Assembly (NCBI GenBank): GCA_025267735.1
Contig: CM046298.1
Location: forward strand, 30,759,866 to 30,823,865
Source of the DNA: Mactra quadrangularis
Taxonomy: Eukaryota; Mollusca; Bivalvia; Venerida; Mactridae
Direction of reading: 5' to 3'
Length of the DNA: 64,000 bases
The position numbers and the translations under genes are program-made. Below, in pieces: positions 330-62,784 of this stretch; the stretch's first letter is position 1; the number at the start of each line of letters is the position of its first letter. Under the pieces are notes generated by a model. The model was not told where the DNA came from and did not search any database. It worked only from the letters and a program-made list of their open reading frames with translations.

Positions 330-446
330 CTTGATTACAAGACTGTCGATATACCACGTGACCAACATGTGAACTGACTAGTGAGCATTCATACAATTCA
401 CATTTACTTAAATCTCTCTCATAGTATGTCATTAAACTGGAGTTAT
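330..446 (-). CDS. Exon 23: module B10, second part
   Basis: 39 codons, phase 1-1, GGACAG acceptor and TCAAG|GTAAGT donor. It contains KCELYEC and ends VVYRQSCNQG (C8, C9, C10). Combined with exon 22 it makes an 80-residue type-B module lacking C6 and C7. The good donor shows that the gene continues left of the window, where a type-A module is expected next. Confidence 0.83.
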
Positions 447-3400
447 CTGTCCACAACAAACAAATGAAAAATAAAATATTTCATATAAACGAAGAGTAAT
501 AGTTGAGTTAAACACATCAGTTTAGACTTTTCATATAACAGTGCGGTTAGATTCGCTTTTATGTACATTTTTAGTCGAACTTATAATTTTGTAGAATATC
601 TCTGATCATTGAAATCACATTCATGCAAGTGATCCCTCAAAGTGCTAATTTGCAAATTAGTGGAATTGAACAATTGTAAAGTAATTTCTTGCACTAGGAA
701 ATTAGCATTGACCATAGTGGGATTAGAACCCGGGATCTCTCAATCCCTTAGAGCTCGTCCTACCAGTACAGAACAAAACCACTGGACCACTGCTCCTATA
801 TATAAATTAAATCATCATGTTGCATCATTACCATGACTTTCTATTGGAGGCATGTTATTTTTAAGATATTTTTATTTCAAGATATTTGTCAAATTTTATT
901 TAACTGTCTATAGCTCAAACCAGGCATTTTATATAACAGGGATTTGTAACGATAAGTAAATGTAATAGATTTTCATCAAATTTCACTGTCGTCGATATTA
1001 TTTCGGCCCGTACGAAAAACAAGTATGACAAGTTTAAATAAAGATATTCACATGAAATTTTGTACCAGTACCATTTAAATTAAAATAATTGTTAGAAAAA
1101 AATGTGTTTCTAGATGATTTTGAGGTAAATTACGCTCACAGACTGTTTCACAAAATAATGCATTTTCCCGCAGATCTGCCATTTTTAACCCCTTTTTACA
1201 TCACCTAAAGTCATATTTTCGGTCATAATTGCAACAATTTTTCGTCAAAAACTTCAGAAACATTCATAAGTTGCATGGAAGACATGTACAAAAACATAAA
1301 TCAAAATTTTAAACTCTGGAATAGTTTGTACAGCCTGCTTCAGCCAATTATAGACCGTGACGACCATGAAAATTCAAAAAGCACTTCGTTACAAATCCCT
1401 GTTATATAGAATCCCTGCTCAAATATTAACCCCGCTGATTTGAATATTAATTACAATATTCTGTACTCAAGATCGACGTATGTTTGAATCAACTAAGGTA
1501 ATGTATGTGCCACTGGTAGTTTCACAAGCACATCAGTCTGTTTATTGGTGGTAACAACAAGTACCAGTCTATTTTGTAAATTAGCGAAATAATTAGCTTG
1601 CTAATAAAAAACGATCTTCTTTAATAAATCAATTGAACACATAAGTTTACAATTTATTTTTGTTGCTTTCTTGTTTTTCTTGGTTTTTTTTGTCTATCTT
1701 TCTAATGATTCTTCGTTTTTTCAAGTAAAAGTACTGATTTAAAGATTCACATTCTGTACTCATACGCTTCTCAATGATGTATCATAATTCATATATTAAT
1801 TTATTCTTACTAAACATGCTTGTTCATATATATTCCTTATGATGTATTGTCATAACTAATAATAACATGTATGTATGTATGTATTGTTGCTGCCAATTGA
1901 CGGCAGAAAAGCACATGTGTGCATAATTGCTGAAATAAATACATTTGTATTGTATTGTATTGGTAAGTTGTCCATAATATATGTTAATAAAAAATATAAT
2001 GATATAATGATAATATAATGCAAATCAAAGCACCAGAAGCACTGAAAAATGATTTATTGATCTTGAGGAAGAGAGCTGAGGACAAACTAATGTTTGTTTG
2101 TTGTTTTGTTAACGTCGTATTCAACACATATTTAGGTTTTATATACGACGGCCAGCTCTTCCTACAATAGGTTTCTTGGACACTTTTCTATCACCAGTAC
2201 TAATTTACCCTAACACGATGCCGATAACTCGTGTATAGGGTATGACCTACCGCGACCGGGCTCAAACCCTCGATCTCCAGATTCGAAGTCAGACATGCTA
2301 ACCACTACGTCACGGCCGCGGCTACTAACTAATGTACAGGAACGATAGGGTAGATTTTCCAACTAGTAAAATTGAACTCTTAAAATCGTTCAAAAACGAA
2401 AAGAGCTTAAATGATATTACATAAAGGTTCGAAAATGCCCAAAAGATTAACCTGCGTTAAAAATGTCCAAACATTCGTGTTCAAAGAAAACACCATTTGA
2501 TCCATTGAACGGCTTCATGCAGTTACGACCCATTTTACAATTGATACACGTCTGGGTTACATTTGATGTACAACCTAAAAAACAAAAACAACAAAAATTT
2601 AAGTTGCATTGTGCTCACAGACATGCCAATACGATACTACCCTAAGCATTATGGGTAAAAAATCCATTTATCTGAAACCGCGTGTGTTGAGTTTAACTCC
2701 GTAGCAACGCATTGTTTAGGTCATATAACGGAAGTCAGTCAACCTACTCACTCCTCCTGGAAAGGCTAAATCTATGGATTTAGCTGTAAACCAACTACTG
2801 TGCGCATACTTTCGTCAAGGACTAACAACTGCCATCCATTATTAAAAATCATTGGTAGGAGGGAGAATGGCCGTAGAAATAATTTCATGACCAAGCTCCA
2901 CGAAAGTATGCCCGCCCGGGAATCGAACCCACGACCTCTCGATCAGTAGACTTGCGTGCTACCAACTGAGCTAGCCGGGCGGTTTTATGTAAACAGTACA
3001 ATGAACTAATCCACGACTGGGGATGCTCAGAATGACAGTAAAATAATCTACAGTATTAATTTGATATGTGTTAATGAGTGTCTTGTTGGTTTAATAGTAA
3101 AGTATTCTACCAATACAAACATGATTGACTTAGGTGATTGTGGTTTATCCGCCTTACTGATAATAACCTTTGAAGCTTTTGCTGTAAAACCTTTAATTTC
3201 AGTAATGCCCTACCATCGGAACGGATTAGTTTATTTTGATGTTTACACAAACACATACTATTATTTTGTACGAACTATAACACATTGAGTTTTTGTGGCT
3301 AATCAATATAACATTACCATCAAATACAGTATGCAAGTCAAATAATGGTAATTTTACATCCATGCTAACGTGTCAACATTTGTCAATGTTCACGCAGAAA

Positions 3401-6400
3401 TTTGAAAACGAAAGTAGAATGCACATTAAGGCTATATATAGAAACTTGGTATATTTACATGTTTTGATATTTACTGTAATGTCTATCTCAACATCTCTAT
3501 ACATAGACGCTCACTCATCGCAAAATTCGGCGATTTTGGCTCCGCGGAAGAAAAAGTGCGGCGTATGAACACAAATTCTTTTTATTTTTCTGTTTTTATA
3601 TGGGATTTCCTCATGTTTAGTAGTGGATTGTGGTAAATACTCATTAAAATTTGTCGCGGACGATTGCATTCGATAGTGCGTGTGCAATTAAAGGGATAAT
3701 TATCACTGCAATTAATGTAGTCCTCATTACGCGTTATCAAGCAGACGATAAGAATTACATTCTACATGTATATCTAATCTGGCCTATGTAAGATAAAGGT
3801 ACCTTGTATCGCTTCCGTTTGTTGTATAAGCCATATACTCCATAAAAACCCATGTCTGACAGCGCTATTAGCGCTTTGATTAATATATTTATTGATGGCT
3901 TATAATTACAGGAATATCAAACCATAAATACAAAATGCTTAAAAACATCAATGGCTCTGCGAGTTGTGACAATTTATTTACGGTTATTTGCGATTGATTA
4001 TGAGCAAGCAATCCGTAAGGACTCGTTAGAAAAATCCATGAATGCAAGGGTGGTATTAAGTAAATTTTAGGCCTACTGTTAGTGTTTCCTTCGTATGTAA
4101 GTTGCATAAGTTAAAATTGACGTCATCTTTTAATGGGTCATTTAATCTTTAACTCCGTAGCAACACATTGTATAGGTCATATAGCAGTGGTCAGTCAACC
4201 TACTCACCGTTCCTGGAAAGACTAAATATCTGGATTTAGCTGTTAACCAGTTACAAGGCATATACCTCCGTCAGTCACTGACAACTGTACTACATAACAA
4301 GGATCGGTTGTAGGAGGAAAAACGGCCGTAGAAATCATTTACCCAAGCTTCACATAAGTATGCTCTGCCCGGGAATCGAACCCGCGACCTCTCGAGCAAT
4401 AGACTTGCGTACTACCAACTAAGTTAGCCAGGCGACTAGTATAAAAATGAAAAAAATAACAAGAAATATAAAATACATACTTTCTGATGAGTCAATGCAT
4501 CGTCTTTTAAGAAACACATTTCCAATTCCTGCATACGTGTAGTTATTGCAGTCATGGAAATCACAACTGAAAAAACCATTACCAAATGTTGAATGGCAAC
4601 CATAACTGAGTTTTTCTCAGGTATATATGTATAGAGAAGTCAATAGGAGGTCCCAGGCAAATGTTGGTAACTATTAAAGTCATAAAAGTGACGAGAAATA
4701 AGAACCATCATGATATCAAATAAAGCAAAAAAATTGCATAATAGTGATCTTTGGTCATTAAAATTACTAACTATGAATTAAAAATGCCGCGATAACCATC
4801 CATCACACAGATGACGACGGATGAAATAACCCATTTTTCCTTTCAGAGGCCATTTCACGGAAATGGCCGATAAGACTCGTACGTCATCGGAAAATTACGA
4901 CAGTTGCTAATTTGTATATTAAACGGTGTTCCGGTAAAAAAAACGTAATCATGATAAATGTCAAAGCTTGAAATATGAGCACATACTTTGGTTTACCTCA
5001 TTAAAGACACAACTTATCGCAAATTTTGACATCTGTGTTGCACGCTTTTTTCGGGCTAGATATAACGGTAGTATTTCAGTATGTTACGATTAATGAACAT
5101 ACTTTCTGAGGCCCTGCAATGACTACATGAACCTAGTTCAAATGCAGTGTTGATAATGATCGTTTCATCACACACTTGAAAAATATTCATAATTGGCAAT
5201 GATATTTGCTGTTTTGGGTTTGAGTTAAAATCTTTGATGCAACTGAAGTGATTTAAATCTGTCAATACAAACGGCGAGCAATCGGGTACAGCCGCCCGAT
5301 TAGCTAAGTTGGTAGCTCGCAAGTCTACTGATTGAGGGGTCGTAGGTTTCATTTAAGAGCGGGGCATACTCTCGTGGAGCTTGGTTATAAAATTATTTCT
5401 ACGGCCATTCTCCCTACTACCAATTATTTTTAATAATGTAGCGCAGTTGTCAGTCCCTGACGAAAGTATGCGCTTAGTAGGTGGTTAAAAGCTAAATCTA
5501 GAGATTTAGCCTTTCCTGGAGTAGTGAGCCGGTTGACTGACCACCGTGATATAACTTATATAATGTGAGCAACGGCGTTAAACCCAAAAAAAACCCCCAA
5601 GCAATCGAGTGCTGATACCACAGTGGATAAACAATTATGTTTTCCCGACTTGTTTTATCGCCATTTGTGACCCATATATGGCCGGTTTAGAGGGTTTGGT
5701 AGCTAAGTTTTGCACTGTGCAAGTACGCACTCAGGTATCAGCTCACGCTGATGAAATCCGGGGTTGCCTCGTGCCAGTCTCGCAAATGCCCTCCTGTCTA
5801 TGTATCTTGGATCCCTCCAAACTCCCCGATTGCATAACATAGCCAAGAAACACACTTAGAGGCATTTTTTTTATCTTGAATACAAGATATGTCTATCTTT
5901 ATTCCCTTTAGGCCACCAGTCCTAAGTGCTCATTTGTTATACATAGTGAACAGAATCATTCAGGACAATCAATAAACCCCTGAAAATGCTGTGTTCTAGG
6001 TGGTGGAGGAAGTTTTACAACTTCAATAACAACATCCCAATTTCTGTCACGAATGAAAGACCTTAGTACTTCATGTTGATCATTTGAGACAAACATAACT
6101 ATATCCTTCTTCTAGCCATTTTACTTGACTGTACATTGTATTTTGTTTTATAGTAGGATAAAATGAGTTTATACAAGAGCAATGATTATTTCATAAAAAA
6201 TGTATAGTTTGCATAAACATGTATAATTTATATTTACCAAACAACCAAATTCAAAATTTACCTATGAACGGGCCTCAATTTATTTCACCTGTCAGCAAAC
6301 ATGAGAAAGTCATGAAACATGTAATACTTGAAATTTTCACGACTATTATGATATGACCACCATACTACAATTTTCATTTGATATCAAGGATTTATAAGTT

Positions 6401-9400: not shown

Positions 9401-12400
9401 GTTCATGATTAATTGCTGTAAGACAATGATGTTCATGATTAATTGTTGTATGACACTGGTGTTCATGATTAATTGTTGTAAGACAATAGTGTTCATGATT
9501 AATTGTTGTATGACATTGGTGTTAATGATTAATTGTTGTAAGACAATGGTGTTCATGATTAATTGTTGTATGACAATGGTGTTCATGATTAATAGTTGTA
9601 TGACAATGGTGTTCATGATTAATAGTTGTATGACAATGGTGTTCATGATTAATTGCTGTATGACAATGGTGCTCATGATAAATTGTTGTTAGGCAATGGT
9701 GTTCATGATTAATTGCTGTATGACAATGGTGTTCAGGATTAATTGTTGTATGACATTGGTGTTAATGATTAATTGCTGTATTACAATGGTGTTTGTGATT
9801 TATTGTTGTATGACAATGATGTTCATGATTAATTGTTGTATGACAATGATGTTCATGAATAAATGTTATATGAAAATAGTATTCATATTTACCTGAGGAA
9901 CAAGAAGTTCTGTACAAAGTACGACCAAGTGCCATGTTAATCCAGTTACAATCATAATAAAGTATCCTAGAATCATAGGATGGTTCATAAGTTATACTTT
10001 GTATAGAACCATTGGCTACTAAAATAGATGGATCCATGAGACTTGGTCTTGCTGTTGAAAAACTACTTAATGGACCTTGACAGTGTTCCGATGCTTTGCA
10101 GTCAATACATAACTGGGTATTGTTTCTAACACAATGAGCTGAAAATAATGGAAATATTTTCACCTTTACTATACATGTACTTAAATAATGAAACTAATAT
10201 ATAATGTATGGTAGTTGTCAGTAACTGACGAGAGTATGCGCTTAGTAGTTGGTTAACAGCTAAATCCAGAGCTTTAGCCTTACCAGGAACAGTGCGTAGG
10301 TTGACTGACCGCCGTTATATGACCTGTATAATGTGTTGCTACGGCATTAAACCCAACAAAACAAACAAACAAACATATTTTAAGTTGTACTCGAGTATAA
10401 GACACTTGTAATCTAATATCAAACACTAGAGATTATTCCTCGACTTTGTTGTAAGATCGATATTTACATGTATGAGATCAGAAAACATAATTTCAAATGT
10501 GGCTTATCAACAAGAGAAAATGTCATTTTTCTGAGCTCACGAGTTGAATAAAAATATGTTATTCCAAAATTAAGGGAAATTCTATTTCTTTCATGTTTTT
10601 CCTCATTCTTTTTGTAAATATATTTTTCACAAATGTATCATGTTTAATGATCTGAGGAAAAGTTTTCTCGATTTTAGAAGATGACAGTAATAATTCTTTA
10701 AAAGTATTTTTGAAGTTTAATTTGTTTAGTTGAAAACCCGGGTCGATAGCGCAGTTGGTAGCGCGCCGGGATTTGGAACCTCGTGCCCGAGGGGGTGCGG
10801 GTTCGAATCCCATCCGGGGAGGTTATACCCTTCCATGAAAATTTGACAATAATGTCGATTTTCCTCCATTGATTAGATAATATGGAGGAGTTTCCGGCCT
10901 TGTGGAAGGGTAGGTGAGTACTGATTATAGACAATGGTCCAGGAAAGCTAGGTTAGGCGCGCTGGACGCCGTAAAATGACCTAACTTGTGTTGACACGGC
11001 GTTAACTCCAATAAATGAAATAAATAAATGTTTATTTGAATCAAAGTATAGTCCTATGGTGTATTCACACTCTAAACAAACACTCTATTTATAGTTTGTA
11101 AACCAGATATAGAGTAAGTACATACCATGAAATTATAATCATGTGTGACAGGTTAATAAAAATAGGACAATAGTAATAGACAAACAGAAATAAAAAAAAC
11201 AAACATCAACAAAAACCAACAGAACCTACCTGGGTAGCATATTTTCTCCACAAAAACTGTAGTATTTACCGTCATCACCATTGTGTTACAAGTATGAAGA
11301 CTACAATCTTCCAATAGCGAATCAAATGTTATACCTATAAAAAAGAGAATCACAAGAACAAATCAAATCTCCGAATCGATAAATTCTAATTATTAGCATA
11401 ATTGTGACATAACATTACATAATATAACTACCCGGCTGGCTCAGATGGTACATGTAGCAGGTAAACATACTAATCGAGGAGTCTTGGGTTCGATTCACAG
11501 ACGAGACATTCATTCGTAACGAAAGAATTTCTACGGTTATTCTCTCTTCTACCACTAATTCTTAATCATGTAGGACAGCTGTCAGTCACTGATGAATGAG
11601 TTGAGTATGATGTGCCTAGAATATGGTTAACGGCTATATCCAGAGATTTAGCATTTATAGGAACAGTAAGTAGGTTGACTAATTACAGAAGATGAAATTC
11701 ACAAAATGAGTAATTGTTTGGGCAAAGATTCACAATCTGATAAGTTGGCTTCCGCTCTTCCAGACGAAGAAACCCAATTTATTGAAAATGTTGCCTATGA
11801 TGATAGTGAAATATGTGCAAGTGCGATGGAGTGTTTTCTTGAGTTAAAACAATTGAAAGACAAATTAGAATATTCAAAGCATACTAAGTTGAGTGAGCAT
11901 GCGATGTTTCGACAAGATGTGTTAGCAATGCTGGAAGAAATGCGCAAAATCGCCTCAATACAGATGAAACAACAAAGTGAGATTTTTGATCACCAAGAAA
12001 AAAGAGATAAATTGTCCGTGTCTAGTACTTCAGTTAAGTTACCAAAACTAGAATTACGTTCCTTTGGTGGAGATAAACTAAATTGGGTGGAGTTTTGGGG
12101 ATGCATTTGAAAGTACAGTACATCGAAACAAATCTTTATCTAACATTGAGAGATTCAATTATTTGAAGAGCAAGTTGTTCGGATCCGCAATGAGCGCTAT
12201 ATCTGGTTTATCACTTTCTAATGACAATTATGAATTAGCTATTGAAATTCTCCAAAATCGTTTTGGAAATACCCAACAAGTCATTGATCTTCATTATCAT
12301 AAGTTAATAAATCTGCAAGCTCCATCTAATAGCACGACTAGTTTAAGGATATTCATGGATTTGGTTGAACGACACTTGAGAAGTCTGGAAGTTCTAAAGC

Positions 12401-33400: not shown

Positions 33401-36400
33401 AAGCCGCGCGTCAGACATGGACCAATTACAATAGCTTACATTGGGCACATATTGCTCAGATGAGTCAAACTACTGGTCTCACAAAATACAAAAATATTCA
33501 TAAGAATGACCATGAAATGCAAAAGGGATCTGAAAAGAAAATCAAATATGACTAGTAAAATTATTAAGATCTCACTCTGGTTGTCACAATTTAATCCAAC
33601 AAATGTAGAGGTTGTAGAACCAGTGTCCGTACTGTTGATACAATCATGAAACAAACAATATTGTGAGAACGACTCATAGGTTACCCCGACACATCCATCA
33701 ACATCTAAACAATTAGACACACACTCGTCTAATGTTGGAATATTAAACGTAAATTGTATGATATCACATCGTCCCGAGTGGCCTGGCATCTCGAATAAAG
33801 TAAACTGTGTACAAGCTGAAAAACAAACGAATGAACTACATAAAACTTATACAATACAATGCAATGCAATGCAATAGAACGCAATATATTAAAGTTTTAT
33901 ATATATTCCCTAATAGCCCTAAAAATCATACGATGTCATACAACACGTTAACAATAGATACAGAGCAATCTGAACTGTTCGGTCCGTTACGAGTTAATTA
34001 AACAAAAACTATGATAAAACCTGCATACATTTGATAAATATGGAAAGCCATTCTGCCATGCCAATTGCAATTTGCTAAATGACATTTGCTAATGATAAAT
34101 ACGAAATGCAATCTAGTAAATCTAACAATTGCAAAAGAAAACTACTTTGCTTCGTCGAGTATTTACGCATAGAATGACAATACTATAATATGGAATATCA
34201 CTTCACGGAACCGAGTACTCTATCGAACGTTTGAGTATCGGTTACCAAAATTGATACTCGAGTACTTGTTAAAATTTAAGAAAAAAATTCCATTTCGCTT
34301 CCCGAAAATTTTCTTTTGCAAAACGAACACTTCAGGCGATTAAATGTAATCAAAACTATAAGTACAATGGTCAATATAACATATTTCGAATAATAAACAC
34401 ATGCAGCAACTTAGCCAACTCCCATGCAAAAAGTCTGTGTACCAAACAGTTTCTACCCAGCCACCATGATCTTCTGGAATCGCCTACCCAAACAAGTTGT
34501 GAGCAACCGACGTTGGAGAGTTTCGCGTCGGCTCTGATGACACACTCAACAACCAACTAAAGACATTACCAGTTTTTACTATATTTTTAAAAAAGAATTA
34601 AATAGAAAACTTTTATTTGTAAAAAGATACCCGATTGCTGCGCATGTACATAAGTTTTTCATCGAGATAATTCTCTATGAAAAGTGACGCGATTACTGAA
34701 GATGGTGATGACAGTCACTCGAATGAAATGAAATCAATAACATTTCATCTATATCCATTTAAATAGATGCTTACCAATGCCTGTAAACATCTATTTAAAC
34801 ATAAAGAGATACGGAATTTTAGCTTTGAGTTCCAACATTTGGAGGGCACTGTTTGACAAACGTTGAATCCGACTGTAGACACAACACAAAAAACATTATA
34901 GCGCTACATGTACCTGATGGGCATGAAGGCCTAAAGAAGTATCGCCCATCAAAGCGGTGCATTGTTTTACAGTTGTACATATACCAACATGTGTAGTTAT
35001 GAGGACTGTAGGCTGTAGACATATTTGCCATGATATTATTACTGTAACTTTCACAGTTCGACATTCTTGTTATTCCTTGGCTCACAGTGGTACAATCAGG
35101 TGATGGTCCGCAATTCAAACATGTCCTTATCTGTGTTGAAGCACAACCTATAAATCAAGATAAGCAATGTATCAGTTTTCTTTACTAGAGAAACATACAA
35201 TTCATTATCAATAATTTACAAAACGTGTAAGTTTCCAGTGTTAGAAGACGGAAAATTCAAGATAATTAATTTATCGTTATCTTTGTTATTTGACAGACAA
35301 TTTAAGATAATTAATTTACCATTTAACTGTGTCAGGGTACAGACAATTCAAGATAATTAATTTACCATTTATCTGTGTTATAGGACAGACAATTAAAGAT
35401 AATTAATTTACTAGTAATCTGTGTTATAGGACAGACAATTCAAAATAATTAATTTACCAGTTATCTGAGTGATAGGACAGACAATTCAAAATAATTAATT
35501 TACCAGTTATCTGTGTCATAGGACAGACAATTCAAAATAATTAATTTACCAGTTATCTGTGTCATAGGACAGACAATTCAAAATAATTAATTTACCAGTT
35601 ATCTGTGTTATAAGACAGACAATTCAAAATAATTAATTTACCAGTTATCTGTGTTATAGGACAGACAATTCAAGATAATTAATTTACCAGTTATATGTGT
35701 TATAGGACAGACAATTCAAAATAATTAATTTACCAGTTATATGTGTTATAGTACAGACAATTTAAAATAATTTGACAGACAATTCAAGATAATTAGTTCT
35801 TCGGTTATCTTCAAGATAATTAATTCTTCGGTTATCTGTGTTAGAGCACAAACAATTCAAATTAATAATAAAAATTCGGTTATCTATGTTAGAAACAGAC
35901 AGTTCAAGATAATGTATCAGTAATTTATGCAAGAGGACAGTCAATTTTTCCTTTTATAAGAACTAGCTGTTATTCAAGATAATACATGTATCAGTGAGGA
36001 TGTTAAGCTAATTATTCAGGATAATTAATTTTAGTTATTTGTAAAAGGGCGTTATTTTAAGGTAATTTATTAATCAAGTAGTATCAATTATTGTACATGG
36101 ATAAATATACAAATACAAGTCGATAGTAGAAACACATGTCAAATATAAAAAACTTGCGTTATGTAATTTTCATTATAAAACAGCGCGCCTTCGTGCATTT
36201 GTACGTGTACCACCCATCTTCTAAAATGGCAAACTAAGGATCTTGATGTCCTGTTTTAACTAGACTTATTGGATCTGTTTTTAGGAAATGTGACATACTA
36301 ACATATGGATAATTGATAGGGAAACTGATTACATATCTGCAATATCCGTTCTGTCAGCTCATGTGATTGTCTGACCACAAACTTAGGGGTCGCGGTTTCG

Positions 36401-39400: not shown

Positions 39401-42400
39401 TCTTGGTTGTGCATTACTTCTTTTATAACACATACAAAAACACCACAGATTGTTTTTAATTTCCAAAATCTGACGAACACGGTGAACCACTCTTTTCAGT
39501 TCTTGGCCTTTATTTTGCTATTTTAACCGATACATGAGGATTTTTTTCTTGGGTTGCCATGCAATATTTTGCATTTTTCCAATAGAATGATATTTATAAA
39601 TAGATTTGGGTATTACCAAAGCCAGCTTATACTGCTATGCCGAAAAGGGTAGAAACGGGCGATACAAAAATTAACTGCCTTGAAAACGTGCGATGTACCT
39701 GTGACACAAATCTATAAATAGCTGGGATTATCCGTTGGTATCCTACTTTCGGTTTCAATACTCTGTAAAGAACGTTGTTCAGTTCAGTTCAGTGCAGTAA
39801 GTGACCAGAACTACTTGATAAATGATTGATTTTATACTTAGCATGATTTTAATGCCTAGGGACGGATCCAGATTTTTTTTCTGGGGGGGGGGGTGGTCCG
39901 AATTTTTCTACGGTGGGTCCAAACCTAGAACCACAATCACATTATACACATTTTGCAGAAAAAATGCAACATATTGATAATAAAAACTACATAACCATTA
40001 AATTTTTGTTAAGCACTGACAGAAAAATGCTTCATGCTACTTAAAAACGACTTACAGGCAAGAAATACACTAATGGACAGGTACATTTTCCAAATTCTAG
40101 GGGGGTCCGGACTCCCCTGGCCCCCGCTGGATCCGCCTATGAATGCGTAAACAAACCTGCAGAACTGGACTTCCTGTGTAACGTGCTTCCATTAGCTGGA
40201 ACAATATTGTTACAACTTAAATGTATACATGTATCAAGTGTGTTGTTGAGGACACATATTTGGTTTATGGTGATTCCGTCGCACATTTGTATGCATGGCA
40301 ATATACCCGTAGATGAGTCTATCGGTGTAAGACAGCTTGTCGTTTCTTGAGCACAGTTGTCACATGTTTGCATTGTCAAAGAGCTAACTGAAATAAAAAG
40401 GAATAAAATAGAGCAGTAAATCAAAGTACTGAAAGTACTGTCAAATAGAACAGTAAATCAAAGTACTGAAAGTACTGTCAAATAGAACAGTAAATCAAAG
40501 TACTGAAAGTACTGTCAAATTGAACAGTAAATCAAAGTACTGAAAGTACTGTCAAATAGAACAGTAAATCAAACTACTGATAGAACGGTCAAATAGAACA
40601 GTAAATCAAAGTACTGAAAGTACTGTCAAATAGAACAGTAAATCAAAGTACTGAAAGTACTGTCAAATAGAACAGTAAATCAAAGTACTGAAAGTACTGT
40701 CAAATAGAACAGTAAATCAAAGTACTGAAAGTACTGTCAAATTGAACAGTAAATCAAAGTACTGAAAGTACTGTCAAATAGAACAGTAAATCAAAGTACT
40801 GATAGTACTGTCAAATAGAACAGTAAATCAAATTACTGATGGTAGACATTTTTCTTACTCTAAAATGGTAGCCCATTTAAATATGATTTGATTTGCAATA
40901 ATTTTCACGTAAACTTTGGTTTGCTTAGTCATAAATAGACTGCAAACAAGAGATAAGTAAAAGATGAAGACTCGTTTACAGTTAAATGGTTTCAATTTTT
41001 TAAGAAATACCTTTACTGGAGTCGTACTCATTGTATAATACGCACCGAACAAATTATAATGTTTGCATAAACCATATCTGAACAACAACCGCGTCCAGCG
41101 CGACTAGCCTAGCTTTCCTGGACCCGTGTCTATAACCAGTACTCAATTACTCTTCCATAAGACCGGAAACTTCTCAATATACCTTATAAAGGTATAAAAG
41201 GAGGAAAAGTGACATAATGGTCAAATTTTCATGGAAGAGTGTATGTATAACCGGTTCGGGTTGGATTCGATACCGTAACCCATTGGGGACAGTAGATTCG
41301 AAATCCCCGCGCGCTATACCAACTGTCCTTCAGCCGCAGGTTTTATACATGTACTTATTACAACGAGATACCATCATTCAAAAATATTGTCTTTATTCTA
41401 ATATATTAGCGAACATTCACTTTCTATATTTTCAATAAACAAGCAGTTATATAAAAATTGGGCTGACCCATTTATATTGATTAGGCCAAACTGTATTGCT
41501 CTAACACTGCGATATAAGACACTTTTGTTTGATAATATATCTAATATTTGTCTAATGAAATATTAAAAAGAAATGCCAATATTAAGTACTTTTCTATTGA
41601 AGGACATTGTCAATTAAAACTAATAAACGATCCGATACACAGCTAGAGTTGATATAAGTAATATGTAATTCCTATAGCGCAATTTAACGCAGGCAGTAGA
41701 AACCATACTAGGTTTGTTTAATATATGTACTTGAAATTAGACGTAAAAACTTTGGCTGTATTTTTTCACAGACAACTTAACAATAGTGCTAGTAACATAA
41801 GATGATACATTACAAAGTTGAAAGCTATAATTGAAATAATATTATGATAAATAGAAATAAACATAGTTTTATCGCACAAAATTCATTTGTCCATATACAA
41901 TACAAGCTTAAGGTTTACAGCGTGTCCATGTCTACGCTAAAGACACTTCTTTAATAAAAGTCCACCAACAATCAGATATACTTCTGTCACCATAAAGTGA
42001 GAAAGTAGTTCTGACTGGCATGGATTCCGTAGAAAACGTGAAGTTCATGGAATTCGGTTTTTGTGGAAAAAAAGTCTGAAACTACACAGAACTACGACGT
42101 GTGAGACATTGCATTAATTAATGAAATATTTTAATAAAGCTTGTAACAATTTAAATAATTACCTGATTGCTTATACAATAAGCGTAATTCGATATTTTTA
42201 GCTGTTTATTGAGTAAACTGTTGACCGGGCAATAGTTTTGACTGTTTCCCGCGCGTGCTCTGACGTCACGCAATGTTATTCGAACTGTTACTGAACTGAA
42301 ATAAGGGGAAGTAACTGCTACGGGATTTAAGGCTTTACCAGACGCTTTGGAATGTATCAAGCGTTCATCAATCTTGATTTAGCATGCGTACCCATGTCAA

Positions 42401-45400: not shown

Positions 45401-45610
45401 CAGATATACCATTCCACCTTAAATAAATTATAACTTTATAACAGATTGAGTTTTCCGGACAATCCTCGTATATAAGACACACCTATGCGAACCTGTATGT
45501 GACTAAATATCGTTGATTCTTTAAAGAATTACCTGGTAGTAGATCATATTGAATGAAACACCATAAAATGACAAAAGCAAGTCTTTTCCAGCGAACCATT
45601 TTAAATGTTC
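330..45610 (-). CDS. Secreted protein of alternating PAN/apple-like modules (whole gene span; 3' end outside window)
   Basis: I read 23 coding exons on the minus strand between these positions; each is listed separately. The first encodes a signal peptide. The rest encode 19 cysteine-rich modules in strict order B-A-B-A to B10. All module borders are phase-1 introns with AG/GT ends, and nearly all exon lengths are multiples of three, as expected for tandem exon duplication. Type A resembles PAN/apple domains: C-x3-C-L-D-x3-C-x11-C-x4-5-C and a terminal F/Y-x4-C. Type B shares that scaffold and adds a CxxC near its start. PAN/apple domains generally bind proteins or glycans outside the cell. 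Many N-x-S/T sequons fit secretion. At least 1478 residues are encoded. No transmembrane segment, stop codon or poly(A) end is seen, so the protein may be secreted or membrane-anchored. Family identity is by pattern only; function is unknown. Confidence 0.85.
598..801 (-). mobile_element. tRNA-derived SINE, family 4
   Basis: On the minus strand the head reads GCAGTGGTCCAGTGG and has a B-box-like GGGTTCTAATCCC. The body shares ATCATTGAAATC and GATCCCTCA with the fragment at 9110. Confidence 0.65.
810..1860. other. Intron sequence, nothing recognised
   Basis: AT-rich intron between the two exons of module B10. No ORF of note, no clear repeat structure. GGGATTTGTAACGATAAG near 938 and TTCGTTACAAATCCCT near 1385 are inverted and may bound an unrecognised element of about 460 bp. 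Confidence 0.4.
1869..1965 (+). repeat. LINE-like 3' end with (TTGTA)n tail
   Basis: After (GTAT)n, GCCAATTGACGGCAGAAAAG and GAAATAAATACATT precede repeated TTGTATTGTATTG. The simple tail and AATAAA suggest the 3' end of a non-LTR element. The 5' part is not visible. Confidence 0.35.
2107..2325 (-). mobile_element. SINE family 3
   Basis: The head on the minus strand reads GTAGTGGTTAGCATG and has a degenerate B box. The 3' part resembles the shared SINE tail (GTTGAATACGACGTTAAC). Confidence 0.65.
2452..2574 (-). CDS. Exon 22: module B10, first part
   Basis: 41 codons, phase 1-1, strong GTTTTTTAG acceptor and GCAG|GTTAAT donor. It begins GCTSNVTQTCINCKMGRNC and runs through EHECLDIFNA, giving C1 to C5. 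It is completed by exon 330-446. Confidence 0.82.
2686..2982 (-). mobile_element. SINE family 1, full length
   Basis: tRNA-like head GCTAGCTCAGTTGGTAGC and B box GGTTCGATTCCC on the minus strand, followed by the family body (TGACGAAAGTATGCGC, CTAAATCCATAGATTTAG) and a tail like ACGGCGTTAAACCC. In the intron between A9 and B10. Confidence 0.88.
3070..3285. repeat. Dispersed repeat related to 27362-27892
   Basis: It shares GAGTGTCT, ACATGATTGACTTAG-like, GTGGTTTATCCGC and AATGTTTACA(T/C)AAACAC blocks in the same order and strand. Family unknown. Confidence 0.5.
4144..4437 (-). mobile_element. SINE family 1, full length
   Basis: Same structure as the copy at 2686. Its head ends about 42 bp from the donor of exon A9. 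Confidence 0.86.
4481..4615 (-). CDS. Exon 21: possible partial module A9
   Basis: 45 codons, phase 1-1 if the acceptor CCTGAG is used, with GAAA|GTATGT donor like the preceding exon. It carries SYGCHSTFGNGFFSCDFHDC and VFLKRRC, matching C5 to C8 of type A. I did not find the first half (C1-C4) between here and exon 20. It is either deleted or the exon is a relic. The acceptor is weak. Confidence 0.45.
5103..5258 (-). CDS. Exon 20: possible short, divergent module B9
   Basis: 52 codons, phase 1-1, GACAG acceptor and GAAA|GTATGT donor. It starts DLNHFSCIKDF, resembling the first type-B CxxC region with the second Cys lost. It ends near FELGSCSHCRASE. It is about 30 residues shorter than other B modules. 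Its position between A8 and A9 keeps the alternation. Support is length, phase and partial similarity only. A SINE starts about 30 bp upstream. Confidence 0.4.
5290..5587 (+). mobile_element. SINE family 1, full length
   Basis: Head GATTAGCTAAGTTGGTAGC, family body, and tail ACGGCGTTAAACCC followed by A-rich sequence. It begins about 30 bp upstream of the acceptor of exon B9. Confidence 0.86.
5956..6111 (-). pseudogene. Exon-like fragment of unknown origin
   Basis: After an AG, 51 codons read KKDIVMFVSNDQHEVLRSF to FQGFIDCPE and a stop. The even amino-acid composition and CpG content look coding. It lies in the intron between A8 and B9. It may be a stray 3' exon or transposon fragment. No family recognised. 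Confidence 0.3.
6897..7060. repeat. pogo/Tigger-like MITE fragment
   Basis: Repeated CCCTCTAATCCGGAAACTC, AAACCGGAATT and CATTCCGGAAACCGGA motifs resemble the ends of pogo-like elements. Boundaries are unclear. Confidence 0.4.
7141..7398. mobile_element. hAT-like MITE, TIR CAGGGGCGGATCC
   Basis: Ends CAGGGGCGGATCC and inverted CATAGGTGTATCC, flanked by similar 8-bp sequences (GGTTGTCA and GTTGACCA). The interior is nearly identical to the copy at 39856. Confidence 0.75.
7663..8075. mobile_element. MITE with ~60-bp TIRs and TTAA flanks
   Basis: Ends GGGTCTATCAGTTTTTGAAA and its inverted copy, continuing about 60 bp to TGGG(T/C)G(G/A)GGTAACTAAA. TTAA lies on both sides. About 65 bp from the donor of exon A8. 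Confidence 0.8.
8140..8364 (-). CDS. Exon 19: module A8, degenerate PAN/apple-like
   Basis: 75 codons if the C|GTGCAC donor is used, phase 1-1, TTACAG acceptor. It begins DCLVYEIFAVPSARGIC and has CLEKCLDTQGCMGASY. C7 and C8 are missing (FHVYF in place of YHNC; no terminal Cys). The donor is weak, so the 3' border is uncertain. It may be a decaying module. Confidence 0.6.
8675..8828. repeat. Complex inverted repeat of CAACTCAA(C/T)C motifs
   Basis: Left arm units such as ACAACTCAATCC face GGATTGAGTTGT on the right around a short loop (CTTACTAAC). AGGCAACTCAACCC-type units pair further out. Flanked by CCGTAACGTT on both sides. Confidence 0.7.
8866..9081 (-). pseudogene. Coding-like ORF fragment of unknown origin in intron
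   Basis: 71 codons from ATG to TAA, including DFNSHFNFYTFGDFDERLKL and RRHTYVSDLLRSQFLGDK. The composition is CpG-richer than its flanks. It is not a PAN-like module. It may be a fragment of a captured gene or transposon. Weak evidence only. Confidence 0.25.
9110..9226 (-). mobile_element. SINE family 4, body fragment
   Basis: It matches the non-tRNA part of the copy at 598-801 (AATCATTGAAATC, GATCCCTCA, GGAACAATTGTA). The tRNA head is missing. The 30-bp minisatellite follows. Confidence 0.6.
9238..9888. repeat. 30-bp minisatellite, about 21 copies
   Basis: The unit is close to GTTCATGATTAATTGTTGTA plus AGACAATGGT. The period is divisible by three, so both strands stay open across the array; those ORFs are repeat artefacts. 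The array reaches the splice donor of module B8. Confidence 0.95.
9893..10138 (-). CDS. Exon 18: module B8
   Basis: 82 codons, phase 1-1, TTTTCAG acceptor and CTCAG|GTAAAT donor. It begins HCVRNNTQLCIDC and ends LYRTSCSSG. C5, C6, C7 and C8 are all missing while C1-C4, C9 and C10 remain: two nested pairs lost together. A 30-bp minisatellite begins almost at the donor. Unspliced read-through would add about 43 in-frame codons. Confidence 0.85.
10203..10370 (+). mobile_element. SINE family 1, 5'-truncated
   Basis: Body and tail only (TGACGAGAGTATGCGC to ACGGCATTAAACCC), followed by an (ACAA)n-like tail. Lies upstream of module B8. Confidence 0.8.
10739..11012 (+). mobile_element. SINE family 2, full length
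   Basis: Head CGATAGCGCAGTTGGTAGC, B box GGGTTCGAATCCC, body with GGTTATACCCTTCC, and tail TTGACACGGCGTTAAC. The best family-2 reference here. Confidence 0.88.
11230..11334 (-). CDS. Exon 17: module A7, second part
   Basis: 35 codons, phase 1-1, TTTATAG acceptor and CCCAG|GTAGGT donor. It reads GITFDSLLEDCSLHTC and ends EKICYPG, supplying C6, C7 and C8. Joined to the previous exon it makes a complete 78-residue, eight-cysteine type-A module. Confidence 0.82.
11431..11697 (+). mobile_element. SINE family 1, 3'-truncated at BEL/Pao junction
   Basis: Head GGCTGGCTCAGATGG and body up to TAGGTTGACTAATTACAG, where retroelement sequence begins. The SINE tail is missing. Confidence 0.75.
11706..12501 (+). 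pseudogene. BEL/Pao gag region, frameshifted
   Basis: The first frame (11706-12110) has a coiled, acidic N-terminus and then KLPKLELRSFGGDKLNWVEF, the start of the DUF1759-type gag domain of BEL/Pao elements. After a shift near 12100 a second frame continues to 12501 with SLSNIERFNYLKSKL and NRFGNTQQVIDLHYHKL, also typical. One frameshift interrupts the domain. Confidence 0.8.
12735..13825 (+). pseudogene. BEL/Pao zinc knuckle and aspartic protease region
   Basis: CFNCLKTGHNSHQC is an intact C-x2-C-x4-H-x4-C knuckle. A second knuckle has lost a Cys (CVYYGE). LFLDSGSQRSYVSETLA is the retroviral-type aspartic protease active-site region with DSG. After a frame change at about 13166-13205 the second frame holds DLLLGNDYYLDVI and KLGWVITGRT, as in the DUF1758 protease region. 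Confidence 0.8.
13840..14229 (+). pseudogene. BEL/Pao reverse-transcriptase start, truncated
   Basis: The frame HYKPNHAVITPTNSTTKLRI followed by VDDAS matches the conserved entry to BEL/Pao RT. After a break, 14014-14229 reads IVADIEKAFLHIIRL and YRFCRFPFYLVP, the next RT motifs. The YxDD catalytic block and everything downstream are deleted. Confidence 0.75.
14318..14679 (+). repeat. BEL/Pao 3' LTR
   Basis: A purine-rich tract (GGTGGGGAG) is followed by TGTCGTGGATTC, a typical LTR start, and the unit ends at GCCACA. It holds repeats of the palindromic motif GCTCCGGCGGAGC and an AATAAA signal near 14620. Ends are by eye; the partner LTR is absent. Confidence 0.6.
14711..14839 (-). CDS. Exon 16: module A7, first part
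   Basis: 43 codons, phase 1-1, TTATTCAG acceptor and CGGAG|GTATAG donor. It begins DCLEYEIRFYEGYYGGC and ends CFSRCLDTPGCGG, giving C1 to C5. The rest of the module is the exon at 11230-11334. The intron between them contains the BEL/Pao remnant; its LTR ends about 30 bp from this donor. Confidence 0.82.
14918..14994. repeat. Hairpin with ~27-bp arms
   Basis: CGCGGGC(TT)AGCGCAAAACGG faces CCGTTTTGCGCT(AGG)CCCGCG around about 25 bp. A tiny palindromic MITE is likely. It lies about 80 bp upstream of the exon A7 acceptor. Confidence 0.75.
15484..15549. repeat. Perfect inverted repeat
   Basis: CCATTCTCGTACCCAGAGTC followed by TAGT is exactly mirrored after a 14-bp loop. The symmetrical arms explain the overlapping opposite-strand ORFs here. 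Confidence 0.85.
15707..15952 (-). CDS. Exon 15: module B7
   Basis: 82 codons, phase 1-1, ATTTCAG acceptor and ATCAG|GTGAGA donor. It contains QICYHCDIDHAEC, CAERCDNNTDC and CFMYQC. C1 is absent and the usual KTC near the end reads KTN, so C1 and C10 are lost together, as in B1. Confidence 0.86.
15953..16416. other. Intron between A6 and B7, right of B7
   Basis: No gene, no clear repeat. The motif cluster begins at the right end of this stretch. Confidence 0.4.
16417..20114. repeat. Cluster of ten GT(A/C)ACGTATGTT motifs
   Basis: Copies start near 16417, 16787, 17360, 17536 (inverted), 17555, 19605, 19620, 19775, 19964 and 20101. Most are in direct orientation. The gap between about 17570 and 19600 is largely the Harbinger-like insertion. 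Such clusters are typical of subterminal transposase-binding repeats of a larger element, which I infer here. Confidence 0.55.
17584..19302. mobile_element. Terminal-inverted-repeat DNA transposon, Harbinger-like remnant
   Basis: Perfect 16-bp inverted ends, GGCCCGGTTTCACGAA, are flanked by CAT on both sides. A frame from 17866 reads MSEDRIYQSYRFSPATIYFI, similar in style to the N-terminal region of PIF/Harbinger transposases, but is soon broken. A tRNA-like segment (about 19015-19090) lies within. Superfamily is inferred from this weak similarity; the CAT flanks are not the usual TWA. Confidence 0.6.
20331..20530 (-). mobile_element. SINE family 2
   Basis: Tail AACGCCGTGTCAACAC (as its complement) and body are clear; the tRNA head is degenerate. 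Confidence 0.72.
20758..21000 (-). CDS. Exon 14: module A6 (PAN/apple-like)
   Basis: 81 codons, phase 1-1, TTTTAAAG acceptor and CTCAG|GTACAA donor. It begins DCPEFEFKVHEDTRGGTC, followed by CLSRCLDIVNCRATTY and CIFYTNC. All eight cysteines are present, with one extra residue between C6 and C7. Confidence 0.86.
21341..21703. mobile_element. MITE, TIR GGGACTTTAGTCAGTTAT
   Basis: Inverted ends GGGACTTTAGTCAGTTAT with TA on both sides, about 363 bp, no ORF. Two further copies are at 36720 and 55424. The TA flank suggests a mariner-type target. Confidence 0.85.
21704..22588. other. Intron between B6 and A6
   Basis: AT-rich; no coding exon or structured repeat seen. A block near 22346-22440 (GAGTTATTCGCC, GATCGCCGAATTTGATCCGA) resembles 42780-42870, so a dispersed repeat of unknown type is present. 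Confidence 0.4.
22589..22668 (-). CDS. Exon 13: module B6, second part
   Basis: 80 nt, phase 2-1, AAAACAG acceptor and GACG|GTACGG donor. It encodes CSMFDC and ends VYRESCNDG, supplying C8, C9 and C10 missing from the preceding exon. Phase and combined length agree with a single type-B module of 82 residues. Confidence 0.82.
23222..23370 (-). mobile_element. SINE family 2, 3' fragment
   Basis: Degenerate tail and body match family 2 (GTCGTGCCAACAC, CCTAGCATTCTTGAACC). The head is missing. Confidence 0.6.
23780..25095. repeat. 81-bp minisatellite, about 16 copies
   Basis: The unit contains ACAATGGCAACAAAAACTAC, TCAGAAAACATTGGTTGCC and ACTTACGATAGCACAGG. Because 81 is 27 codons, several frames on both strands stay open. 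It lies in the phase-2 intron that splits module B6. Confidence 0.93.
25593..25758 (-). CDS. Exon 12: module B6, first part
   Basis: Phase 1 start (TAACAG acceptor) and phase 2 end (GATAG|GTACAG). It begins GCDRNFTKSCIRCKKSSLC and carries C1 to C7. The module is completed by the exon at 22589-22668: the split codon AG+G gives Arg just before C8. Together the two exons make 246 nt, the length of modules B7 and B8. The separating intron holds the 81-bp minisatellite. Confidence 0.82.
26150..26620 (+). mobile_element. DNA-transposon copy, GGTGTAAC end
   Basis: It starts GGTGTAACGGTTCACCG with TACCGGTTAATATTGCAATA. The interior (ATTCAAACATTTGT, ATTTGAAAATACA) matches the inverted copy at 32670-33125. 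Right end not located. Confidence 0.55.
26690..26960 (+). mobile_element. SINE family 1 abutting splice donor of exon A5
   Basis: A degenerate head, then the family body and CTACGGTGTTAAACCC followed by AATAAAAAT. The next bases are AC, the complement of the A5 donor GT, so the tail runs into the splice site. Confidence 0.8.
26963..27196 (-). CDS. Exon 11: module A5 (PAN/apple-like)
   Basis: 78 codons, phase 1-1, TTCTTCAG acceptor and AAAG|GTATTT donor. It begins DCLSYKLTVIPGHRGNC, followed by CQQRCLEIDGCRGATF and TYHSC. All eight cysteines are present. The donor GT is followed directly by the tail of a SINE, so downstream donor bases are SINE-derived. A short inverted-repeat element lies 36 bp upstream of the acceptor. 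Confidence 0.86.
27234..27361. mobile_element. Short MITE, TIR TTTGACCTGTC
   Basis: Inverted ends TTTGACCTGTCAAAAA and inner GGTTGGTCGC / GCGACCAACC. 36 bp upstream of the acceptor of exon A5. Confidence 0.75.
27362..27892. repeat. Dispersed repeat related to 3070-3285, with extra interior
   Basis: Outer blocks match the 3070 copy. About 300 bp of interior is absent from that copy, implying an insertion here or a deletion there. Confidence 0.45.
27904..28158 (-). CDS. Exon 10: module B5
   Basis: 85 codons, phase 1-1, TTCTTCAG acceptor and TTCAG|GTAAAG donor. It has NCTNQTYIQTCINC near the start and LRKTCSSG at the end. All ten cysteines are present. It is the longest module in the window. 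Confidence 0.87.
28410..28714 (-). mobile_element. SINE family 1, full length
   Basis: Complete head (GCTAGCTCAGTAGGTAGC on the minus strand), body and tail. In the intron upstream of module B5. Confidence 0.87.
29006..29245 (-). CDS. Exon 9: module A4 (PAN/apple-like)
   Basis: 80 codons, phase 1-1, GTTTCAG acceptor and CAAC|GTAAGT donor. It begins DCPYYHLQELQGHEGNC, followed by CINRCLDMEGCRGVTY and CYYHNC. All eight cysteines are present; a good type-A reference. Confidence 0.88.
29605..29905 (+). mobile_element. SINE family 1, full length
   Basis: Head CAGTTCAGTTGGTAG, body, and tail CTACGGCGTTAAACCC followed by an A-rich repeat. It ends about 40 bp from the donor of exon B4. Confidence 0.86.
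29947..30180 (-). CDS. Exon 8: module B4
   Basis: 78 codons, phase 1-1, TTTCAG acceptor and ACTG|GTTAAA donor. It begins ECFPTEHQTCINCK, includes QCRVHEC and ends FRKTCTTG. All ten type-B cysteines are present, so it is a good reference for the module. The donor lacks the usual A at +4/+5 but the length and phase fit. Confidence 0.82.
30478..30712. mobile_element. MITE with ~38-bp TIR
   Basis: Ends ACAACGACGTTAATATTACG and a near-perfect inverted partner running to GCTGACGTTGTGATT. Located upstream of module B4. Confidence 0.8.
31411..31653 (-). CDS. Exon 7: module A3 (PAN/apple-like)
   Basis: 81 codons, phase 1-1, ATTACAG acceptor and ACAG|GTGACC donor. It carries CIELCLDMDDCRGALY. C2 (expected in GNC, here GNN) and C7 (expected in HNC, here YNT) are both absent, which suggests they normally pair. 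The other six cysteines remain. Confidence 0.87.
31864..32289 (-). CDS. Intact 141-codon ORF of unknown identity inside an intron
   Basis: A single open frame from ATG (32289) to TAG, on the same strand as the host gene, in the intron between modules B3 and A3. It begins MGHIFSIEAFGTYIIMFVDD. The DNA is richer in CpG than the surrounding intron (runs such as CGATCGACGCG and CGTCGTCG), as coding sequence often is. It has few cysteines, no signal peptide and no similarity to the A or B modules. It could be a retrocopy, a captured exon or part of a mobile element. No poly(A) tract or target duplication is evident. Confidence 0.4.
   Translation of the reverse strand: MGHIFSIEAFGTYIIMFVDDLKLLQLEFIASIDRNARLSREEITRFTYYFMTIIDVKKENVFFLLKGKPAMGLHYQVKFVSSIGCVHSLKRAIFINGIKIEIRSKQTNECTTTLYSSETGHKILIEFDRIYDDKTTFLTFL
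32379..32615 (-). CDS. Exon 6: module B3
   Basis: 79 codons, phase 1-1, TTTCAG acceptor and ACAG|GTGAGT donor. It begins DCNDTFIQKCTDC and ends AFRKTCSTG. C6 and C7 are both missing and the other eight cysteines are present. The following intron holds the unexplained ORF at 31864-32289. Confidence 0.87.
32670..33125 (-). mobile_element. Inverted copy of the 26150 element
   Basis: Flanked by GGTGTAAC and GTTACACC, with CCGGTTA and GCAATACGAATTC near the right end. It lies in the intron between A2 and B3. Confidence 0.55.
33576..33815 (-). CDS. Exon 5: module A2 (PAN/apple-like)
   Basis: 80 codons, phase 1-1, TTTTTCAG acceptor and CAGA|GTGAGA donor. It begins ACTQFTLFEMPGHSGRC, followed by CVSNCLDVDGCVGVTY and LFHDC. 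All eight cysteines are present. Confidence 0.88.
34404..34541 (+). pseudogene. LINE ORF2 C-terminal fragment
   Basis: The frame PNSFYPATMIFWNRLPKQVV then SNRRWRVSRRL and a stop matches the conserved end of LINE reverse transcriptases (SFFPRTI..WN.LP..VV). In the intron between B2 and A2, antisense to the gene. Confidence 0.7.
34914..35147 (-). CDS. Exon 4: module B2
   Basis: 78 codons, phase 1-1, TATAG acceptor and TCAG|GTACAT donor. It begins GCASTQIRTCLNCGPSPDC and ends FFRPSCPSG. Eight of the ten type-B cysteines are present. C6 and C7, the inner pair, are both missing. Confidence 0.87.
35225..35945. repeat. 46-bp satellite array 1, about 15 copies
   Basis: Units share GACAGACAATTCAAAATAAT and then TAATTTACCAGTTATCTGTG. 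The copies decay toward the right. It lies in the intron downstream (3') of module A1. The core is shared with the array at 38618. Confidence 0.92.
36365..36560 (+). mobile_element. Old tRNA-derived SINE-like repeat
   Basis: A B-box-like GGTTTCGATTACC is followed by a body with GACAGTTGTCAGTGACC and GATCTAAGCTAAT, distantly like family 1. The head is eroded. Confidence 0.4.
36720..37079. mobile_element. MITE, same family as 21341
   Basis: Same ends and interior as the copy at 21341. Its right end lies about 10 bp inside the intron after the donor of exon A1. Confidence 0.85.
37091..37339 (-). CDS. Exon 3: module A1 (PAN/apple-like)
   Basis: 83 codons, phase 1-1, TTTTAG acceptor and ACAG|GTATGT donor. 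It starts DCPNFEIAY and carries all eight type-A cysteines, including CVRECLDMIGCRGFTY and EYHNC. Two arrays of a related 46-bp satellite flank it in both neighbouring introns. A MITE starts about 10 bp inside the downstream intron. Confidence 0.88.
38618..39205. repeat. 46-bp satellite array 2, about 13 copies
   Basis: Units share GACAGACAATTCAAGATAAT with array 1 but the variable part reads TACGTTTTCTTTGTCAGAG. It lies in the intron upstream (5') of module A1. Confidence 0.92.
39856..40141. mobile_element. hAT-like MITE, second copy
   Basis: Same interior as 7141-7398 (ACATTATACACATTTTGCAG and so on), with AATGC at both flanks. It ends 13 bp from the donor of module B1. Confidence 0.78.
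40157..40387 (-). CDS. Exon 2: module B1
   Basis: 77 codons, phase 1-1, CAG acceptor and CAG|GTTTGT donor. It begins SSLTMQTCDNCAQ and shows eight of the ten type-B cysteines. C1 and C10 are both absent; the usual KTCSSG ending reads KSSSAG. A hAT-like MITE begins 13 bp after the donor, and a 37-bp minisatellite begins just upstream of the acceptor. Confidence 0.85.
40405..40850. repeat. 37-bp minisatellite, about 12 copies
   Basis: The unit is ACTGTCAAATAGAACAGTAA plus ATCAAAGTACTGAAAGT. It contains the short inverted motif AGTACTGAAAGTACT. The array begins about 20 bp upstream of the acceptor of module B1. Confidence 0.93.
41086..41336 (-). mobile_element. SINE family 2
   Basis: Body (CTAGCTTTCCTGGACC, complement strand) and a degenerate tRNA head near 41330. 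It creates a spurious plus-strand ORF at 41217. Confidence 0.72.
42435..42595. mobile_element. Palindromic MITE
   Basis: Arms of about 50 bp (CAGTTATTTTATGTGTGGTT to GCCAACAGTTTGGCTG-like sequence) around a GC-richer loop. In intron 1. Confidence 0.78.
43912..44101 (+). mobile_element. SINE family 2, 5'-truncated
   Basis: It starts at a G-run before the B box GGGTTCGAATCCC, followed by GGTTATACCCTT and body. The tail is degenerate. Confidence 0.7.
44570..45423. mobile_element. Long-TIR fold-back element
   Basis: Arms of about 230 bp starting TTTAAGGTGG, including CGGATCTACACTTTATTTG and GACCGCGTGCACTTTTTA in both orientations. The spacer is about 400 bp without an ORF. It lies in intron 1, about 110 bp from the exon 1 donor. 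Confidence 0.82.
45533..45610 (-). CDS. Exon 1: 5'UTR end, start codon and signal peptide
   Basis: After an acceptor (TTTTCAG) come 11 nt of leader and ATG at 45599. The 22 codons start MVRWKRLAFVILWCF, a basic n-region followed by a hydrophobic core, then one extra base before GTAATT. This leaves phase 1, exactly what every downstream module exon needs. The acceptor implies an untranslated first exon further right that I cannot locate. A long inverted-repeat element lies about 110 bp into the following intron. Confidence 0.8.
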
Positions 45611-62462: not shown

Positions 62463-62766
62463 TGTTTTAATGGTTTAACGCCGTAGCAACACATTGTATA
62501 GGTCATATAACGGCGGCCAGTCAATCTACTTACTCCTCCTGGAAAGGCTAATCTCTGGATTTAGCTGTTAACCAACTACTAAGCGCATACTTTCGTCAGT
62601 GACTGACAACTGCCCTACATAATTAAAAATCGTTGGTAGGAGGGAGAATGGCCGTAGAAATAATTTCATGACCAAGCTCCACGGAAGTATGCCCCGCCCA
62701 GGAATCGAACCTACGACCCCTCGATCAGTAGACTTGCGTGCTACCAACTGAGCTAGGGGGCGGCTT
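62463..62766 (-). mobile_element. SINE family 1, full length
   Basis: Complete head, body and tail on the minus strand, 40 bp downstream of the exon at 62316-62423. Confidence 0.86.
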
Positions 62767-62784
62767 TCGTCGACATTGATCACG

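Follow-up and report, generated by a model that had tools for sequence, protein, structure and literature searches.

A stretch of 64,000 nucleotides from the bivalve Mactra quadrangularis (the window; plus strand of contig C6, positions 30759866-30823865, in a genome of 979 Mb and 447 contigs) carries on its minus strand the first part of a gene in which two kinds of module, A and B, follow each other strictly in turn. We put at about 60% the probability that 12 B-A pairs are spliced into one likely membrane-anchored receptor of ~2180 residues, a PAN-type rod that would have extracellular glycans or proteins as its ligands. Module A is of the PAN_1 type and module B of a cryptic, CxxC-containing type; their numbering keeps the style of an earlier first-pass annotation of the window, hence A12 is followed by B15. 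The sequence itself shows an open frame with its intron phases, strict alternation, A modules of PAN_1 identity, cysteine losses that come in pairs in the B modules of this gene, and a partly collinear paralog with the same ending on contig C19. The predicted architecture is well supported, and the protein would act, we infer, as a large adhesion or recognition receptor built on B-A pairs.

Six-frame scans of the window gave significant module matches solely in minus-strand frames, which ran from 40457 to 217. Splice-site scoring gave an acceptor and a donor of the same phase for most modules, and the remaining exon borders were placed by sequence reading. The first coding exon (45599-45533) encodes MVRWKRLAFVILWCFIQYDLLP, with a start codon and a predicted signal peptide, and ends in phase 1. 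From there alternating modules continue down to the donor at 330 on the minus strand, as the first-pass annotation had described. Joined together, the 22 exons of the window form a stop-free open frame of 1395 amino acids, a length counted before the change of A16 donor described below. That annotation was also right that inter-module introns are in phase 1 and that nearly every module is one exon: all 17 window introns between units (signal exon to B1 and 16 between modules) have this phase, and 13/17 window modules consist of a single exon. The four internally split modules are B11 and A18, with a phase-2 intron at the codon just before the equivalent cysteine, and A16 and B19, with a phase-1 intron. 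The donor of A16 was reset to 14711 (score 0.3 vs -2.8, both weak), which drops an 8-residue insert unique among the A modules. The coding parts are as follows, with C6 position equal to window position plus 30759865 and negative coordinates lying left of the window.

45533..45599, minus strand: first coding exon, with start codon, predicted signal peptide and phase-1 donor
40157..40387, minus strand: B1, 8 cysteines, without C1 and C10
37091..37339, minus strand: A2, PAN_1
34914..35147, minus strand: B3, without C6 and C7
33576..33815, minus strand: A4, PAN_1 match under the gathering score
32379..32615, minus strand: B5, without C6 and C7
31411..31653, minus strand: A6, PAN_1, without C2 and C7
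29947..30180, minus strand: B7, complete 10-cysteine set
29006..29245, minus strand: A8, PAN_1, folded model with predicted local distance difference test score (pLDDT) 87.7
27904..28158, minus strand: B9, complete 10-cysteine set
26963..27196, minus strand: A10, PAN_1
25593..25758, minus strand: B11 exon 1, then internal phase-2 intron
22589..22668, minus strand: B11 exon 2
20758..21000, minus strand: A12
15707..15952, minus strand: B15, directly after A12, without C1 and C10
14711..14839, minus strand: A16 exon 1, donor 14711, then internal phase-1 intron
11230..11334, minus strand: A16 exon 2
9893..10138, minus strand: B17, without C5, C6, C7 and C8
8208..8364, minus strand: A18 exon 1, then internal phase-2 intron
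4481..4566, minus strand: A18 exon 2
2452..2574, minus strand: B19 exon 1, then internal phase-1 intron
330..446, minus strand: B19 exon 2, its phase-1 donor leading out of the window
C6:30748689-30759124, minus strand, outside the window: modules A20 to A26 with the exons for stalk and membrane ending

The first-pass annotation had counted 19 module positions over the span 330 to 45610; the count needs revision, and the gene does not stop at 330. The window holds 17 modules. A scan of the model introns with both profiles found no further one (lowest expectation value, E, 0.35 vs 0.55 on the opposite strand as a control), and the C19 paralog aligns gap-free across the A12-B15 region. Two hand-picked pieces of the A12-B15 gap were rejected as modules, scoring 3.0 bits (B) and 6.0 bits (A), with single-sequence search values of E 0.0008 (A) and 0.008 (B) that are too weak for picked pieces of 31-32 residues. 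The gene itself crosses the left window edge and extends ~11.5 kb more, where the donor at 330 is followed by seven modules (A20, B21, A22, B23, A24, B25 and A26), a threonine-rich exon and a last exon with a predicted membrane ending. The complete predicted model comprises 31 coding exons and 2179 amino acids, with 24 modules in 12 B-A pairs, no internal stop and phase-1 introns between modules throughout. The chance of such a stop-free joined frame would be ~2e-64 if codons were independent, a figure that is overstated since the exons were selected as open. That the modules belong instead to several adjoining genes, or to a decaying array, is very improbable: although repeats and a retroelement lie inside the introns, and a disrupted B19-like fragment is found in a dispersed repeat elsewhere, the 24 modules run without an in-frame stop, the donor after each matching the following acceptor in phase, and the paralog on C19 is likewise alternating and partly collinear.

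Strict alternation, also proposed earlier, extends to the full gene. When classified with leave-one-out A and B profiles, 24/24 modules fell into the class predicted by their position (BABABABABABABABABABABABA), and a perfect alternation of 12 and 12 has a chance probability of 7.4e-7. Mean identity within types is 30% for A and 23% for B (before the A16 donor change), and because these values are low the array looks old. The idea that it expanded by duplication of a two-exon A+B unit fared less evenly. Both the alternation and the symmetry of the phase-1 exons agree with growth by such a unit. The correlation of B distances with A distances (r 0.21, P 0.16; r 0.31, P 0.087) did not show that B and A were duplicated together; among nine lags, -4 reached P 0.026, which was put down to chance. 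Along the array, A distances rise with separation (P 0.017), whereas B distances do not (P 0.12).

The two types differ in how they relate to described families, the first-pass annotation having called both PAN-like. The A modules are PAN domains. PAN_1 (PF00024) was matched at E<=1 by 6/6 single-exon window A modules; four of the five window A modules in the first scan exceeded the gathering score of 21.4, A4 falling below it with 15.4, and A20 also lies above it (25.3). The A8 model shows the PAN/apple fold. Module B, in its full set, has ten cysteines including the CxxC. Searches of the 12 B modules returned one PAN_1 row (E 0.043) and one PAN_3 row (E 0.75), both under every Pfam cut-off, and B is therefore termed PAN-like rather than a member of PAN; NCBIfam matched 0/12 of them. 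The cysteines C1/C10, C5/C8 and C6/C7 are absent in pairs, a rule obeyed by 12/12 B modules of this gene, with a joint chance of 1.8e-7 that assumes independent modules, which they are not. These matched losses fit the nested disulfides of apple domains, with predicted pairs C1-C10, C5-C8 and C6-C7. Compared directly, B and A profiles gave E 8.1e-5 and a probability of 61% with 7 and 6 members, and E 5.7e-4, a probability of 12% and a score of 20.8 with 12 and 12 members; as controls for the latter score, the reversed profile reached 5.3, the best of 60 column shuffles 17.9, and circular shifts, which leave the core intact, 10.7-27.8. For B7 neither Foldseek nor VIA gave a clear match to the PAN fold, the B7 model being too poor. 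Resemblance of B to PAN thus has weak support, suggested by its cysteine pattern and a weak profile similarity, whereas A is placed by Pfam and by fold.

A second gene of the same build lies on contig C19. The B19 query matched this contig at four places in one 27-kb stretch (locus L046), and the analyzed piece (C19:11145001-11181000, plus strand) contains 21 strictly alternating modules, 11 A and 10 B, after which come a threonine-rich stalk and the membrane ending seen in the window gene. The C19 modules were delimited by profile matches, not as spliced models, and the gene continues left of the piece. Numbered from the membrane end, split modules stand at positions 8, 9, 11 and 14 of the window gene and at 5, 8, 9, 10, 11 and 14 of the C19 gene, all four split positions of the former being split in the latter (chance 0.0025). 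Modules at the same position are more similar between the genes than shuffled ones (P 2e-4), the same-position module is the best match in 7/21 cases (one tie), and a register shift of one to three pairs in either direction lowers the score. By eye, the genes also share several cysteine losses: C1/C10 is missing from B positions 4, 6 and 12, C5 to C8 from B position 10, and C2/C7 from A position 19. Both have an extra CDC cysteine in the last A module. Losses confined to C19, of C1/C10 at position 20 and of C2/C7 at position 15, speak against collinearity. Over the ~14 modules nearest the membrane, collinearity is clear from these sequence comparisons, which suggests that the array already had at least ~14 modules when the two genes diverged; an alternating array would thus be older than the gene duplication.

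Genome queries with single modules gave differing reach. With A8, all 20 matches at E<=0.01 fell within the two genes (11 here, 9 on C19), none lying elsewhere in the genome at that threshold and search sensitivity. B9 gave 5 matches, in this gene only, and by itself would have missed the paralog; B19 gave 45, including the C19 paralog and 36 outside both genes. Five of these 36 were examined (L042, L043, L044, L045 and L047) and rejected as genes, being copies of one dispersed repeat with in-frame stops in a B19-like fragment. The copies measure ~3.1 kb each and are 90-97% identical over their main alignments; L042 matches window positions 2392-2593, around the first B19 exon, with 79% identity over 204 bases. 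This five-copy repeat looks like a mobile element with a captured piece of this gene family. With 150 of 448 candidates scored, the genome holds at least 129 PAN_1 matches. The eight best loci (L001-L008) were considered as alternating genes and set aside: the A profile matched 7/8 (L002 twice), and the B profile gave weaker matches on the A-matched frames (best E 6.8e-4), so that they were taken as other PAN genes.

The first-pass annotation had described a secreted protein; in the present model a stalk and a membrane exon follow A26, and the protein is predicted to be membrane-anchored rather than simply secreted. The last exon encodes a hydrophobic segment along with a basic stretch and an acidic tail, and the exon before it is threonine-rich; hydropathy and the shared ending speak for a single-pass receptor with the predicted signal peptide and transmembrane helix. 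Queried against the genome, the last exon matched 14 other loci at E<=1, nine of them at E<0.01 and one of these being the C19 gene. A threonine/serine-rich stretch lies upstream in 5/11 examined other loci (L030, L034, L035, L038 and L039), and L036 (C18:26925622-26926158) has an open frame of 431 amino acids in which a PAN_1 domain (E 8.2e-8) precedes this membrane ending. A profile of 10 other endings, without L035 and the window gene, gave the window-gene ending 60.4 bits (reversed, -3.8), which is support and not an independent search, the loci having been picked with the window-gene sequence. Pfam held no convincing family match for the two endings scanned.

Two other fates of the protein have to be weighed against this ending. 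A fully secreted adhesive or lectin-like product, with the membrane exon belonging to another gene or a minor isoform, is unlikely: the window by itself holds nothing of the gene beyond a signal peptide and modules, the last exon has a weak acceptor, and a fish lectin with eight apple domains, kalliklectin, is described (PMC10499198), but the stalk and membrane exons come after the final A module, on its strand and in phase 1, and C19 has the same order. A structural role in the apical extracellular matrix, glycocalyx or egg coat, in which a membrane-bound precursor is shed and its PAN array cross-links glycoproteins, is less doubtful, although still well short of probable. Such a role would suit the threonine-rich stalk and the 50 N-glycosylation sequons found past the signal peptide, of which a few fall in the predicted tail. 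The nematode PAN proteins named below, however, carry a ZP domain, for which no row up to E 10 appeared in the stalk and membrane exons and none in the single-exon modules scanned, and a membrane ending that recurs at other loci, including a PAN gene, looks more like a receptor set.

Several observations weigh against a membrane-anchored receptor as modeled here. The signal peptide, disulfide pairs, transmembrane helix, exon joins and start of the last exon are predicted, and the gene model is known from sequence alone. The last exon has two candidate acceptors, at -10437 and -10641, both weak (3.0 and 2.6 bits in the gene's own splice profile), and several donors are weak, including both of A16 (0.3 and -2.8). 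Positions 15-21 are mostly non-collinear with C19, with 15, 19, 20 and 21 ranking last or next to last; cysteine counts are odd in 3/21 C19 modules (1, 2 and 8), among them B2' and B8', so that pairing is not strict there; and the five A8 models disagree, with pLDDT from 87.7 to 52.2. Finally, protein searches found no homolog at E<=1, whether with the joined protein of the window (3549 candidates) or with the alignment of the 12 B modules (20 candidates), in a set that may hold few animal proteins.

If the protein is such a receptor, the B-A dyad would be its structural repeat unit, and symmetric phase-1 exons would allow whole modules to be gained or lost while keeping the frame. Tandem dyads could provide length and many weak binding sites, and hence avidity, while the threonine-rich stalk might raise the rod above the cell surface. 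The tail has a basic membrane-proximal part and a YDVL motif, which we take to be of the YxxPhi type, and could serve uptake or signaling. Proteins of tandem modules usually repeat one module. In this gene, by contrast, a pair of diverged modules recurs 12 times in unbroken alternation, and a second gene keeps the order; because the alternation persists in both genes although module gain or loss spares the frame, selection seems to act on the dyad and not the module, which makes this a clean system for asking why alternation persists. The genes also add a likely new PAN subtype overlooked by Pfam profiles, and point to a set of surface proteins with a common membrane ending and differing ectodomains. 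We would give roughly even odds to a wider proposal, namely that B is an undescribed PAN subtype, with four nested apple-type pairs and a CxxC, and never occurs apart from A; that the dyad is the true building block; that the two paralogous receptors kept the alternation since before their duplication; and that a larger, lineage-specific receptor set shares the threonine-rich stalk and membrane ending and swaps ectodomains.

Several kinds of repeat lie in the introns of the gene or elsewhere in the window. The intron splitting A16 contains retroelement pieces (window 11679-14229, plus strand), with DUF1758 and aspartyl-protease matches in 1/4 pieces scanned, presumably of a BEL/Pao-like element. 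Minisatellites occur in five introns of the gene, at 9257-9873 (30 bp units, starting 20 bases past the B17 donor), 40406-40839 (37 bp units, stopping 19 bases before the B1 acceptor), 23804-25046 (81 bp units), 35254-35772 and 38609-39200 (46 bp units in both). A short dispersed repeat with a tRNA-like stretch, which we assume to be like a short interspersed nuclear element, is found in both orientations at 2685-2985, 4141-4438, 5292-5567, 28420-28717 and 62472-62767; ARAGORN called no tRNA in the window despite this stretch, and Rfam at gathering scores also returned nothing there.

Among known systems, factor XI and plasma kallikrein have four apple modules and a protease, and to our knowledge they have neither two-subtype alternation nor a membrane anchor. 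The binding of proteins or sugars by PAN modules is described for coagulation factors, for adhesins of parasites and for matrix proteins of nematodes (PMC10499198, PMC4274027, PMC4970718, PMC7588048). Among molluscs, a discussion of 2020 names PAN/apple domains as known from 4 genes of Crassostrea gigas and some of Lottia gigantea (PMC7588048). Like the window gene, Eimeria tenella MIC5 has a long apple-like array, of eleven regions, and is linked to host-cell attachment; unlike it, the related EaMIC5 is reported to be without a transmembrane region or a GPI (glycosylphosphatidylinositol) signal, and the accessible text mentions no two-subtype alternation (PMC4274027). Kalliklectin is similarly multi-apple and without proteolytic activity, but has eight modules, and no second subtype is mentioned in the part of the source available (PMC10499198). 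The nematode proteins NOAH-1, CUTL-18 and LET-653 resemble the window gene in having multiple PAN domains at epithelial surfaces, NOAH-1 and CUTL-18 being membrane-anchored like its predicted ending; they differ in their ZP domain, LET-653 has two PAN domains, and the accessible passages do not mention a B subtype (PMC11398461, PMC4970718). As the first-pass annotation had supposed, no PAN protein with two alternating subtypes was found in the literature searched, in which subscription papers were covered in part. Long multi-PAN proteins are already known, and what seems new here is the alternation of two subtypes as a dyad.
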